A stretch of DNA of 64,000 bases, taken from positions 5,543,563 to 5,607,562 of the forward strand of contig OX638329.1 in the NCBI GenBank assembly GCA_951812755.1, read 5' to 3'. Under the pieces are notes generated by a model that was given only the letters and a program-made list of their open reading frames with translations, had not been told where the DNA came from and did not search any database. Each line of letters starts with the position of its first letter. Within the stretch, counting starts at the first letter, position 1. Of this stretch, positions 41,307-46,102 are shown in pieces. The DNA is from an uncultured Latescibacterota bacterium (lineage in GTDB: Bacteria; Latescibacterota; UBA2968). Both the position numbers and the translations under genes were made by a program.

Positions 41307-42287
41307 GCGAATAAAGAGTTGAAAACATCGCGCTCTTGCCTATGATTGAGGTGTCAAATAATCCTCAATCCTCAAAAATAGGAGCAAGAACGCGATGGAC
41401 TGGCAAGAGCGACTAATCGGTTTGTATCTGTATATTTGTGATCATTACGAGACCCATCTGTGGGTGCATGCCCAACGCTTGAGCAATAACGATGATCCCA
41501 AATTTAGCGATGAAGAAGTCCTGACCCTCTACATATTCGGCATCATGCAAAAATACACGACGATTAAAGCCATTTACACTTATACCCAAGACCATCTCCA
41601 CGACTGGTTTCCAACCTTGCCGACGTATGAGGGCTATGTGCAGCGGTTGAACCGTCTGGCGACAACCTTTTCCCCGCTCGTCGAACAAATCGTGACGGAT
41701 TGTCCCTCCTGTGAGTGCTTTTGGCACAGTCACTTAGTCGATTCCTTCCCCTGTGTCATGGCCAATGCCAAACGCAGTGGCAAGGCGTGTGTCGCCGCGC
41801 ACTTAGTCAACAAGGGCTTTTGCGCCTCCAAAGGGATGTGGTATTATGGCGTCAAGCTCCATATCGTCGCAAAACGGTCAGACAAAGGACTCTCCAAACC
41901 CGATTATATCAGTCTCACAGGCGCAGCGGACCATGATCTTTCTGCCCTTTGACCCCTCTTGCCCTATTTGCACAACGGACAACTCTATGGGGACAAAATC
42001 TACTCTGATCAGACCCTAAAAGACACCCTTTATGCAAAGCAGAACCTCGCATTTTATACACCCGTGAAAAAAAAGAAGGGGCAAGACATCCTGCCAGCGG
42101 CCGATTAAGTCCTGTCTCGGACGGTTAGTCGAATACGGCAGCCCATTGAATCCTTGTTTCATTGGATTGATGAAAAAACCGGCATCTCAATGGCATCTAA
42201 GGTGCGCTCCTATAACGGCTTACTCGTTCATGTCTTTGGCCGTTTGGCCGCCGCTTGCTTCTTACTCGCTTTTAACTCTTAATTCGC
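41307..42287 (+). mobile_element. IS982-like insertion sequence, degenerate
   Basis: A 981-bp element. The terminal repeats start GCGAATAAAGAGTTGAAA (left) and GCGAATTAAGAGTTAAAA (right, on the other strand), 16 of 18 matching. The single transposase gene is interrupted by two stops. I see no target duplication, in line with the flanks coming from two different genes (hsdR and a putAbiC-like gene), meaning a deletion next to the element. Confidence 0.8.
41395..42282 (+). pseudogene. IS982-family transposase, interrupted by TGA and TAA
   Basis: A 296-codon frame. LSNNDDPKFSDEEVLTLYIFGIMQKY and LPTYEGYVQRLNRL are the N-terminal part. VDSFPCVMANAKRSGKACVAAHLVNKGFCASKGMWYYGVKLHIV carries the first catalytic Asp. 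After TGA at 41950 the same frame continues GQLYGDKIYSDQTLKDTL (second Asp), then TAA at 42106, then RQPIESLFHWIDEKTGISMASKVRS (catalytic Glu). With two different stops the protein is dead; the first ~185 residues could still be made. GGAGCAAG precedes the ATG. Confidence 0.85.
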
Positions 42288-43012
42288 GTTAATATCACGA
42301 TTGAATTGACAATCTCGCTGTGCATACCAAGAAGTTGAAAAAAGGAACTCTCAAAATTCTGCTTCTGAAGTGTTTCCTTTTGTCCCTTGATTTCAGCCCT
42401 TGTGTCCTCTAATTCCTTCCGTTGAAGCTCGAGTTCCTCCCTTTGAAGCTTAAGTTCCCTTTGTTGAAGCAGTATTGCATAAATGACACCAGCAAAAGCC
42501 AATCCAGCAAATAGCGCATTAAGTGCCCCAAAAGTATCCCCAAATTCTCCTTTTTTTTCTTCAAGAGGCCAATTAGAGATCCAGATAATAGACAAATACA
42601 CTGCCCAAAGAATAATTACTCCTATAAACCAGGGCCACCAGCGGACTCTCTCAGAGTCATCGGCAGTCTTGCTCATACTACTTAATAGCCCGGTAGCTAT
42701 CGCGCCTTTACCGTTTTCAAAACAGGGTGTGATTTTTGCAATAATGACATCATTCTCTGCAAGATAGGTATAACCAGCAGACACAACTTCTGATAGTGGT
42801 TTATTATTTCGAATATCCAATCTACCTGTCTCACCTATAGATTCCATTGGAAGAAAAGTCACGGGTGTATCAAGTGGTATTGTCTTTAGCTCTGATTTAG
42901 ATGGGTTGATTTGCGCTACATATTTAATTTGAGTTATCACCCAATGTTCCGGCACCGCCCCCAACCACTCAACTCCACTCTCCTTATATTCCGCATACTT
43001 CCGAAAGCTCAT
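42272..43012 (-). pseudogene. Chimera: hsdS N-terminus joined in frame to the N-terminal half of a putAbiC-type membrane protein
   Basis: A 246-codon open frame. Residues 1-~115 are the start of a type I specificity subunit (YKESGVEWLGAVPEHW ... VTFLPMESIGETG ... YTYLAENDVIIAKITPCFENGKGAIATGL), cut inside the first target-recognition domain. At the next Met begins MSKTADDSERVRWWPWFIGVIILW, two membrane helices (second GDTFGALNALFAGLAFAGVIYAILL), a coiled coil of QRELxLQREEL repeats and FESSFFQLLGMHSEIVNSI. This is the N-terminal pattern of putative phage abortive-infection proteins (putAbiC). It is truncated by the IS at 42288. The ATG at 43012 follows GAGGAG, so the hybrid could still be translated. 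Confidence 0.82.
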
Positions 43013-43057
43013 GTGTCGTTCTCCTCGGCGGCCTCGCATTGCAAATAAAACCGAATT

Positions 43058-43082
43058 GGGGCGAAAGATTTTTCGCCCCTAC
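43058..43082. repeat. REP hairpin linked to the RAYT gene
   Basis: GGGGCGAAA...TTTCGCCCC palindrome followed by TAC, downstream side of the RAYT gene. Confidence 0.85.
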
Positions 43083-43193
43083 ATTTGCATCATTCGCGCC
43101 AACATTATCCAATTCGCATTGTTCGCCCTTACCATACGCACCATGAGGTCTATGTTGTGAATCATTGAATATCCTTTACCGTATTGCGAATCG

Positions 43194-43213
43194 GGCGACG
43201 CATGTGTCGCCCC
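43194..43213. repeat. Variant REP hairpin
   Basis: GGGCGAC / GTCGCCC with a 6-nt loop, again followed by CCTACC; a divergent member of the same family. Confidence 0.7.
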
Positions 43214-43289
43214 TACCTTTTTCATCGTCCCGATAGGTTGTGTAAAATTGCCGCAGCCGAAACAAATTTTGGCGTGTAAATCTACGCAC

Positions 43290-43314
43290 GGGGCGAAAGG
43301 TTTTTCGCCCCTAC
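43290..43314. repeat. REP hairpin linked to the RAYT gene
   Basis: GGGGCGAAAGG then TTTTTCGCCCC followed by TAC, 20 bp beyond the RAYT stop codon. Confidence 0.85.
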
Positions 43315-43333
43315 GGCGGTCTGATGGTATGAA

Positions 43334-43954
43334 TCATGATGTATGTCCTTTGCTGTGATGGATGGGGTTTTCCTGGTCCTCCTCCCAACGTGCCGGATTG
43401 TCTGTAATATATTGTCTAAGGCGGTTCAGGGCGGTGTCATTCCGGATGATGTGTTCGTAATAATTGCGTTGCCAAACGGTGTAGAAATTTTTGTTTGTCC
43501 GCACCCATTTGGTAACGCCGATTTTGAAACCGCGCACAATGGAACCAACCGTTTTCGATGGCGACCGAAATGCCGATGCGTCCCGTTGGGATGATCGGGG
43601 TGGGGGCGGCGGTAGGGGCGAAAGATTTTTCGCCCCTACATTATCCGATATCCCCACATTTTTCGCCCCTACATTCGCCCTATTTGCCAGCCCTATCCAA
43701 ATGATACCATGCACATGATTCGGCATAATCACAAAGGCATCTAATACAACCTTCGGAAAATGTTCGGGAATAGCCCGCCAACATGTATCGGCGACCTCAC
43801 CCACATCGTTCAACTGCATCTGTCCGTTCACAATTTCACCGAACAGACACGCCTGATTTTGGATGCAAATCGTTACGAAATACGCGCCTTCTCGAGTGTA
43901 ATCGAACCCCTTCAAACGGATTGAACGGCGATGGTGCTTGGGATCATATCGCAT
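43334..43954 (-). CDS. REP-associated tyrosine transposase (RAYT, Y1 HUH family)
   Basis: A 206-residue single-strand transposase that processes REP hairpins. HHRRSIRLKGFDYTREGAYFVTICIQNQACLFGEIV opens the domain. VVLDAFVIMPNHVHGIIWI holds the HUH metal motif (H-V-H). YTVWQRNYYEHIIRND carries the C-terminal Tyr-containing YYEHIIRN segment. Four REP-type hairpins lie outside the gene on its two sides, and 1.5 more are inside it (43612-43672), read in frame as VGAKN units between residues ~95 and 115. The insert enlarges the usual loop before the Pro-rich PLPPPPPRSS. The flanking repeats suggest a recently active element inserted between hsdM and hsdS. Confidence 0.92.
   Translation of the reverse strand: MRYDPKHHRRSIRLKGFDYTREGAYFVTICIQNQACLFGEIVNGQMQLNDVGEVADTCWRAIPEHFPKVVLDAFVIMPNHVHGIIWIGLANRANVGAKNVGISDNVGAKNLSPLPPPPPRSSQRDASAFRSPSKTVGSIVRGFKIGVTKWVRTNKNFYTVWQRNYYEHIIRNDTALNRLRQYITDNPARWEEDQENPIHHSKGHTS
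43612..43672. repeat. REP hairpins inside the RAYT coding sequence
   Basis: A full palindrome GTAGGGGCGAAA...TTTCGCCCCTAC (43612-43639) followed by a half copy (43651-43672). Confidence 0.88.
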
Positions 43955-44041
43955 GTTCTGGCCTCCATATCCTCAACCCTATCCGTGCGGGCGAGGCATA
44001 CCCCTACAATGCTTCTGGATGTAATTGCTAAATCCACACAT

Positions 44042-44066
44042 GGGGCGAAAGGTTTTTCGCCCCTAC
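44042..44066. repeat. REP hairpin linked to the RAYT gene
   Basis: GGGGCGAAAGG then TTTTTCGCCCC followed by TAC, between the hsdM stop and the RAYT start. Confidence 0.85.
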
Positions 44067-44080
44067 AGTGAATCATATCT

Positions 44081-46102
44081 TTATCCATTCAAAATCCCTC
44101 CAACCGTTTCAACAATCCCATCCGTCACATCTTCAATCATCTCGACAATACCATCCGTCACACCTATCAAATCCGTACCAATCTCATCTAACGCGCGGGG
44201 CGGTTTGAACACATAGAAATACCGATTAAAGGGAATTTCGTAACCCACTTTTGTCTTGCTGTAATCAATCCACGCATCGGGCACATGGGGCTGAACTTCG
44301 CGTTCAAAATACGCATCGATATCCTCGCGCAACGGCACATTCTCATAATCGCGCAAATTGGGATCTGGTTCTGGTTCTCCCTTGCGATTGGTACAAACAT
44401 CCGCGGTCTCGTCATACTCGCTTAAGGATTGATAAATCAACTTCAACTGAGCCGCAGTAATATTCACCTGCGCCCCTGTAAAAGCATCCGTAAGAATGCC
44501 AATGAACTCATCGCGGTTTTTGTATTTGCAATCACCCTCAAGCGTCGCTAGAACCTCGAGAATGCGCTGTTGCTGTTCTTGCGGCAAACGGGCAAAACTC
44601 CTCGCCGATTTGAGAATCTTAATACGGTCTTCACACACTTGAAAATTGCGCTTGAGCGGGCGTTCAATGGTAATGCGCTGATACCCGAAATCAACATTGT
44701 CAAAAATCTTCACGCGACCCTTCACATCCTCAAAATCGCCAAACAATTGCGTAATCTCCTCAATCTGTCCATCGGAAATCTGCTTGCGCTTGCTACCAAG
44801 GCTCTGGATCATCGCAACGTGAAAATCTGTGGCATTGATCAATTGCACTTTACCCTTGCGCTGCGGCGTCTTCTGATTCGTAATAATCCAGATATACGTC
44901 GCAATACCCGTATTGTAAAACATATCCGTAGGCAGGGCTATAATCGCTTCCAAATAATCATTCTCAATAATCCAGCGGCGGATCTCGCTCTCCCCACTGC
45001 CTGCACTGCCCGTAAAAAGGGGCGACCCATTGAGCACAACAGCCAGACGGGACAAATCGCCATTCTGATTAAACTTTGAAATCATGTGCTGCACAAAAAG
45101 CAGCGAACCATCGCTAACACGCGGAAGCCCCGCGCCAAATCGCCCCCTATAACCGAGGTGATTGGCTTCGTCCTTAATCTCGGATGCGACCTTCTTCCAA
45201 TCGACCCCAAACGGTGGATTGGACAACATATAGTCGAACTGCTCATCGGGAAGGCCATCCTCTGTAAAACTATTGCCGGGATGGATATTTTTGGCATCTT
45301 GCCCCTTGATCATCATATCTGATTTACAAGTCGCATAACTCTCATCATTCAACTCCTGCCCGTACACAATCAAACTGGCTTCTGGATTGAGTTCCCTGAG
45401 ATAATCCTCCGCAATAGAAAGCATTCCCCCCGTACCACAGGCCGGATCGTACAACTTGCGAATAATACCCCGTTGGGTCAGCGCGGCCTCATCCTCTAAA
45501 AAAAGAAGATTAACCATCAACCGGATAACTTCACGAGGCGTAAAATGCTCCCCAGCCGTCTCATTGCTCTGCTCGGAAAACCTGCGGATGAGTTCTTCAA
45601 AAATATATCCCATCTGCAAATTCGAAACGCGATCCGGATGCAAATCCGCCTGTGCAAAGCGGCTGACAATCAGATAGAGCAAATTATCCCGGTCGAGACG
45701 CACAACCTGCTCTGGCAGATTAAAACGATCAATAAAAATATCACGCGCATCATACGAAAACCCGTTAATCATATTGTTCAAATTCGCAGCGATATTGTCA
45801 GGATCGTCCAGCAACCTCTCAAAAGTAAACGGACTTGTATTGTGAAAACTGTGCCCACTCGCCATATTGAGCATTGTCTCGCGCATCGTCTCGTCAATAT
45901 TCTCAGGCAGATTTTCCAACTGCGCCTGCACAGCGTCTTTCGTCGGCACCAACACGCAATCGAGCCGTCGCAAAACCGTGAACGGCAGCACCACCTTCCC
46001 ATACTCCGACTGCTTGTAATCACCCCGCAGAAGTTCCGCAATGGACCAGATAAAACCGATATGTTCACCAAAATCCGCACGAGCACTCGAACTATTTGTC
46101 AT
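44081..46102 (-). CDS. hsdM: Type I restriction-modification methylase subunit
   Basis: N6-adenine methylase subunit, 673 residues, complete. The N-terminal helical domain (IAELLRGDYKQSEYGKVVLPFTVLRRLDCVL) and FEELIRRFSEQSNETAGEHFTPREVIRLMV are canonical. SAM motif I is DPACGTGG (219-226), the catalytic motif IV NPPFG (295-299). IALPTDMFYNTGIATYIWIITNQK is the usual later segment. The C-terminus ends in an imperfect duplication (VTDGIVEMIEDVTDGIVETV). Without intact hsdS it lacks sequence specificity and without hsdR cannot restrict; it may be a decaying leftover or work with another specificity subunit. Confidence 0.97.
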   Translation of the reverse strand: MTNSSSARADFGEHIGFIWSIAELLRGDYKQSEYGKVVLPFTVLRRLDCVLVPTKDAVQAQLENLPENIDETMRETMLNMASGHSFHNTSPFTFERLLDDPDNIAANLNNMINGFSYDARDIFIDRFNLPEQVVRLDRDNLLYLIVSRFAQADLHPDRVSNLQMGYIFEELIRRFSEQSNETAGEHFTPREVIRLMVNLLFLEDEAALTQRGIIRKLYDPACGTGGMLSIAEDYLRELNPEASLIVYGQELNDESYATCKSDMMIKGQDAKNIHPGNSFTEDGLPDEQFDYMLSNPPFGVDWKKVASEIKDEANHLGYRGRFGAGLPRVSDGSLLFVQHMISKFNQNGDLSRLAVVLNGSPLFTGSAGSGESEIRRWIIENDYLEAIIALPTDMFYNTGIATYIWIITNQKTPQRKGKVQLINATDFHVAMIQSLGSKRKQISDGQIEEITQLFGDFEDVKGRVKIFDNVDFGYQRITIERPLKRNFQVCEDRIKILKSARSFARLPQEQQQRILEVLATLEGDCKYKNRDEFIGILTDAFTGAQVNITAAQLKLIYQSLSEYDETADVCTNRKGEPEPDPNLRDYENVPLREDIDAYFEREVQPHVPDAWIDYSKTKVGYEIPFNRYFYVFKPPRALDEIGTDLIGVTDGIVEMIEDVTDGIVETVGGILNG

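Follow-up and report, generated by a model that had tools for sequence, protein, structure and literature searches.

An in-frame REP hairpin within a RAYT transposase gene of an uncultured Latescibacterota bacterium

A RAYT transposase gene lying between the hsdM and hsdS-like genes of an uncultured Latescibacterota bacterium is surrounded by REP hairpins and holds further copies of the same hairpin within its own reading frame. The locus raises the question of whether such an internal hairpin is a passenger that the gene tolerates and that copies elsewhere in the genome renew, or a part kept by selection. We analyzed the locus within a 64,000-nt stretch of genomic DNA, hereafter referred to as the window. 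We consider it very probable that the locus is a REPtron, in which the genome's one RAYT, of the TnpAREP subclass 2.4/RAYT group 4 type, is surrounded by its own GTAG REPs and carries 1.5 of them in frame, presumably as a passenger renewed from genomic REPs; the placement in subclass 2.4 rests on features (internal REP, double foot, short C-terminus) rather than on a tree with reference sequences.

The RAYT gene, its hairpins and their setting

The RAYT gene is an intact minus-strand ORF encoding 206 residues (Table 1), and it is the only RAYT copy in the window genome. The catalytic residues, HuH (H80/H82) and Tyr182, are present; H80, H82, W161 and Y182 are invariant across 74 aligned homologues. 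Scores against curated families fall below their cut-offs, both for NCBIfam NF047646 (REP_Tyr_transpos; E 1.5e-13, 50.9 bits, cut-off 80) and for Pfam PF01797 (Y1_Tnp; a marginal match, 17.3, cut-off 23). Pfam run on the window RAYT alone remained below threshold, and a PHROGs search returned no match. We note that a curated cut-off is a database convention and not a biological defining feature. Since 52 of the 74 aligned homologues match PF01797 at E ≤ 0.001, the low scores of the window protein probably reflect a limit of sensitivity, with the loop insert splitting the match.

The family assignment therefore rests on profile, fold and residues. A profile built from the 74 homologues matched, at E 2.2e-7, PDB 4ER8, the structure of the E. 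coli RAYT in complex with a REP hairpin. Foldseek with an AlphaFold model of the window protein (mean pLDDT 81.8) also returned 4ER8 as the best match (E 3.3e-7), followed by the IS608 and ISDra2 transposases. The protein thus combines HuH and a single catalytic Tyr in a Y1 fold.

Table 1. Features of the RAYT locus (positions in the window)
Feature	Position	Strand	Basis or remark
hsdS-like ORF, truncated, chimaeric, beyond the REP cluster	42272..43039	-	blastn identity to relatives; C-terminal part weak DUF6082, below cut-off
REP directly before hsdS	43058..43082	-	hairpin scan, fold
Variant REP GTAGGGGCGACACATGCGTCGCCC	43193..43216	-	hairpin scan, fold
yhcG (DUF1016/PDDEXK) remnant, 72 bp, between two REPs	43217..43288	-	blastn, 86% to L148
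REP, 19 bases past the RAYT stop codon	43290..43314	-	hairpin scan, fold
RAYT/TnpAREP CDS	43334..43954	-	206 aa; HuH residues 80-82, Tyr182; ORF, NCBIfam, Foldseek, residue conservation
Full REP within RAYT, double foot GTAG...CTAC, GTAGGGGCGAAAAATCTTTCGCCCCTAC	43612..43639	.	coding strand VGAKNLSPL
Left half of second REP, GTAGGGGCGAAAAAT, within RAYT	43658..43672	-	VGAKN, residues 95-99; no hairpin fold
Degenerate REP GTAGGGGTATGCCTCGCCC, GAGGCATGCCTC family, RAYT-upstream	43989..44007	-	family copies genome-wide
REP between hsdM and RAYT, RAYT-upstream	44042..44066	-	DNA fold -11 kcal/mol, z -6.0
hsdM, type I restriction-modification methylase, gene before RAYT	44081..46102	-	Pfam N6_Mtase + HsdM_N

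GTAG-tagged GGGGCGAAA hairpins lie on both sides of the gene, with four tagged hairpins less than 1 kb outside it, and one full and one half copy are internal and in frame. In both internal copies, GTA GGG GCG AAA AAT encodes VGAKN, at residues 106-110 in the full copy, which spans residues 106-114, and at residues 95-99 in the half copy. When folded as single-stranded DNA, the full internal REP reached -14 kcal/mol (z = -6.9); the half copy yielded no fold in the same calculation. Only 24 of 2000 dinucleotide shuffles of the window RAYT gene contained any tagged hairpin, and the same hairpin occurs elsewhere in the genome; the internal hairpin is therefore not a product of chance. An Rfam search of positions 42900-44200 returned nothing at E ≤ 0.1.

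A first-pass annotation, made by a model from the letters of the sequence, had identified the Y1 transposase as a RAYT with palindromes on both sides of its gene and 1.5 in-frame internal copies coding VGAKN. The 4ER8 fold match, the REP_Tyr_transpos profile and the conserved residues bear out the RAYT assignment. Palindromes do lie on both sides of the gene, directly before hsdS and between hsdM and RAYT, with more copies besides, and the full and half internal copies are likewise confirmed. This anatomy, together with the intact catalytic residues and the fold, directly supports the REPtron reading.

The interval between hsdM and hsdS holds a RAYT in the window genome (G000) and in G005, and none in G003 and G006. 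G003 (L148) has an intact yhcG there, an ORF with DUF1016_N and YhcG_C domains; the G006 interval measures 249 bp, with a short remnant. Around the start of the hsdS-like ORF, positions 43047-42940 are 85% identical in G006 and positions 43051-42960 are 93% identical in G003. No clean empty site for a REP-RAYT-REP unit was found among the compared relatives. The interval (43058-44066 in the window; L148; L146) is variable in the genus, containing an intact yhcG, a short remnant, or RAYT with REPs and yhcG scraps. The hsdS-like ORF itself is a cut-short hsdS fused in frame to a membrane/coiled-coil segment, and a region resembling a transposase lies beside it (41395-42290). The type I restriction system at this locus may be broken.

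Internal hairpins among RAYT homologues

Homologues were collected from a cross-phylum scan and from genomes of the same phylum, with one phylum search using the N-terminal 87 residues (the core) only, and were reduced to 93 distinct genes from many phyla, each with HuH and Tyr motifs. A hairpin was scored where GT[A/G]G preceded a stem of 8 or more pairs that had no more than 1 mismatch. Such a hairpin lies between HuH and Tyr in 74/93 genes, or about 80%, a share that excludes genes with a decayed internal REP because rule-based detection misses degenerated copies; dinucleotide shuffles lead one to expect 0.35 in total. In the 240 bp preceding HuH in the same genes, used as a control, a hairpin occurs in 1/93. 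The cross-phylum share may be inflated, as the query contained the insert and one of the six seed peptides (SDNVGAKN) was derived from it; no seed peptides entered the phylum searches, which gave a similar share (16/20 phylum-set genes).

The remaining 19 of the 93 homologues lack a hairpin by this criterion, some of them having decayed copies, and an internal REP is thus not obligatory. The nearest homologue, from Chloroflexi (L039), lacks a hairpin, and its HuH and Tyr are 80 residues apart compared to 103 in the window protein. On a 74-gene tree made with the loop left out, presence or absence of the internal REP changes at least 13 times, compared to a mean of 14.5 with shuffled labels. 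We read this as internal REPs being gained and lost readily, with those present being of their own transposase's REP type.

On the coding strand, GTAG falls in frame 0 in 59 internal hairpins, in frame 1 in 13 and in frame 2 in none. Frame 2 through GTAG reads TAG, a stop codon. The two frames in use produce unrelated peptides (VGAKNLSP-like and RGGSRTAP-like), which points to DNA, and not a peptide motif, as what the internal hairpins share. In the AlphaFold model of the window RAYT, pLDDT drops below 50 for three or more consecutive residues solely at 97-113, the REP-coded stretch; this loop is predicted to be disordered and hence tolerant of the insert.

Inner and flanking hairpins resemble each other in their stems, with a mean similarity of 0.71 at the same locus and 0.29 between loci (36 loci; 0/10000 permutations). 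Inner stem similarity also tracks the identity of the transposase core (Mantel r 0.53, 0/2000 permutations, 58 genes), a correlation that can come from shared descent alone. Copying from genomic REPs suffices to explain the stem matching, and a contribution of selection is possible. The occurrence of hairpins in this same loop across homologues, the frame bias and the stem matching are further direct support for a REPtron.

Age of the insert and REP movement in the genus

The syntenic RAYT of a sister species (G005; Latescibacterota record JAJEAX010000262) matches the window at 95% DNA identity along the 540 bp that run from hsdM to the internal REP, and its own REP sits at the same insertion point as that of the window RAYT. 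Judging from this shared position, which counts directly in favor of our reading, the full internal insert is older than the split from the sister species. Of these two genes, only the window RAYT has the half copy, and either state could be ancestral. The REP nearest hsdM is also shared, as G004 and G005 both have this REP at the corresponding hsdM-proximal position.

At the far end of the internal REP in G005 (L010/L054/L180, contig 329), homology to the window stops exactly and is followed by CATTCGCATCAAGTTAAG; the contig ends about 130 bp past this junction. The CATTCGCATCAAGTTAAG sequence recurs elsewhere in G004, G005 and G006, with several copies adjoining REPs or terminator-like hairpins, and in G004 a related IS-like end abuts the REP after hsdM. 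We considered an assembly chimaera at the G005 REP; because the contig name k141 suggests assembly words longer than the 25-bp REP and because the same end is found at the other G004, G005 and G006 sites, we think that the junction is real. Most likely, a putative IS that inserts at hairpin feet truncated the G005 RAYT at its own internal REP. REPs have been described as IS targets (Tobes and Pareja 2006, PMC1525189), and the IS-like end abutting the internal REP of the sister species resembles those insertions. It differs from them in that the hairpin struck lies inside the RAYT gene and in that the IS-like end is known by its end sequence alone. An IS-like truncation exactly at the internal REP would be a concrete cost of carrying a hairpin in the gene.

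Using a strict pattern, we found the window hairpin at about 13-14 places in the window genome, a figure that misses REPs without the last C of the right arm. A looser tag-plus-stem pattern, which gives the better count, produced 132 strand-specific matches compared to 14 for a control. Eleven double-foot REPs are each counted twice among the 132, leaving about 120 tagged hairpins as the answer to the genome-wide count that the first-pass annotation had proposed. At genome position 743010 (G000:C1), a REP is present in some relatives and absent in others, with another REP family in G002; at position 6107197, the REP is in the window genome only among the genomes aligned across the site. The presence and absence of copies at these two sites support the view that REP families have moved within the genus.

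The first-pass annotation had also taken the insert as a sign of recent activity and had proposed a comparison of orthologues, with an insert shared by all of them marking an old, fixed feature. The REP common to the sister species comes near that outcome and argues against recency of the insert, the half copy being specific to the window; the mobility of REPs in the genus is supported independently, at the two other sites. We observed separately that species of the genus differ at the syntenic intergenic site G000:C1:743010 (compared across L203-L212), where some lack a REP and others have one of the GAAA type or of the GAGGCATGCCTC type.

Explanations and related systems

For a REPtron, we infer REP binding, cleavage, and the way in which copies enter and stay homogeneous as follows. 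The RAYT would bind the GTAG foot and hairpin as single-stranded DNA and cleave beside the hairpin via Tyr182, thereby spreading REPs through the genome. A REP may then land in the loop that joins the HuH strand to the following helix, where it would be tolerated because the loop is predicted to be disordered and because GTAG and the palindrome can be read without a stop in two of three frames. The internal copy would persist, matched to the current REP type, through further insertions of genomic REPs or gene conversion by them, and selection may add to its upkeep.

The internal REP could instead be a selected functional part, such as a site at which the RAYT would attach to its own gene or mRNA and so keep its expression down, or an internal end used in mobilizing part of the element. 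We regard this as rather unlikely. Its presence at one place in ~80% of homologues across phyla, a palindrome that stays good across about 56 sequence variants and the greater frequency of the double-foot form inside genes than in flanks (48/88 compared to 24/81; Fisher p 0.001 in an unplanned test on non-independent loci) favor selection, but the number of changes on the tree, close to that for shuffled labels, suggests that the internal REP is easily gained and lost, and the matching needs no selection if REPs are copied in from the genome. It also seems unlikely that the internal REP is kept because the RAYT recognizes, as single-stranded DNA or RNA, the hairpin that its gene carries, making transposase and substrate a self-matching, perhaps self-limiting unit. 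If true, such a unit would pay for it, as the RAYT gene becomes a target for hairpin-seeking IS elements.

A jump of REP-RAYT-REP into the interval between hsdM and hsdS as one composite transposon would fit the patchy occurrence of RAYT at this interval among G000, G003, G005 and G006, but we consider it improbable: there is no precise empty site, the outer REPs have the same orientation, and the genome has one RAYT copy. Moreover, G003 has yhcG where the window has yhcG scraps between REPs, and these scraps led us to reject the unit as the main explanation. A recent, lineage-specific self-invasion, in which the RAYT put REPs into its own gene after the species arose, is very improbable. Species differ in their REPs at other sites and the extra half copy is confined to the window RAYT, as this scenario would have it, but the REP at the same position in the sister species largely refutes it for the full copy, and most homologues have a REP in the same loop. 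Hardly credible is the idea that VGAKN is conserved as a peptide motif, with the palindrome incidental; the family consensus often has VGA together with a proline, but the idea is contradicted by the same hairpins being read in a second frame into unrelated peptides, and the stems vary with both arms matching while identical hairpins occur in non-coding flanks.

The REPtron reading places the locus among systems already described. RAYT group 4 of Bertels et al. in 2017 is reportedly equated with TnpAREP subclass 2.4. A REP inside the gene is a hallmark of that subclass (Quentin et al. 2018, PMC6006769), and the window RAYT with its internal REP is thus known in kind since 2018, with quantitative support here that exceeds the published description. 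The window RAYT resembles the subclass in its HuH-Tyr core, in the variable loop that follows HuH and leads to the next helix, in its short C-terminus (19 residues beyond NP187, without a conserved C-terminal extension after the core), in REPs that flank the gene and are inserted between HuH and Tyr without a frame break, and in double-foot REPs, both in the gene and in the genome. Its origin in Latescibacterota and its 1.5 copies are differences that do not contradict the class. The insert had been called unusual in the first-pass annotation, a description that does not survive the 74/93 homologues with a hairpin at this place and the hallmark status given to it in PMC6006769. An in-frame copy of the transposase's own presumed substrate is the rule in the subclass and no sign of a fresh accident, which corrects an attractive reading. 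The 80% share, the open-frame rule, the stems that follow lineage and the matching of flanks turn the published remark into a testable question.

The E. coli TnpAREP (RAYT group 2, PDB 4ER8) is similar in fold, in HuH/Tyr residues and in the type of substrate, GTAG foot plus hairpin, which is putative for the window RAYT; E. coli REPs are longer and have a stem bulge, and an internal REP is not reported as typical of that subclass. The IS200/IS605 TnpA proteins (IS608, ISDra2) share the Y1 HuH fold and, putatively, the recognition of single-stranded hairpins. In contrast to an autonomous multicopy IS with defined ends, the locus has one copy, no clean boundaries or empty site, and GTAG-tagged REPs instead of IS ends. 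REPs found inside other genes and Rickettsia palindromic elements (PMC3733652) are likewise short palindromes in frame in protein genes, although here the host gene is the presumed mobilizing transposase itself.

Two arrangements of REPs elsewhere in the window genome were also observed. Four REPs (GTAGGGGCGAAAGATTTTTCGCCC) with a regular 65-bp spacing lie at G000:C1:741013-741231, in a 130-kb stretch (697-825 kb) that is unusually rich in REPs of several families. At G000:C1:6246500-6246660 (L187), a half REP, a spacer and a full REP (GTAGGGGCGAAAAATATGTGGTCGCCCGTTGGTAGGGGCG...) follow one another, resembling the 1.5-copy layout inside the RAYT.
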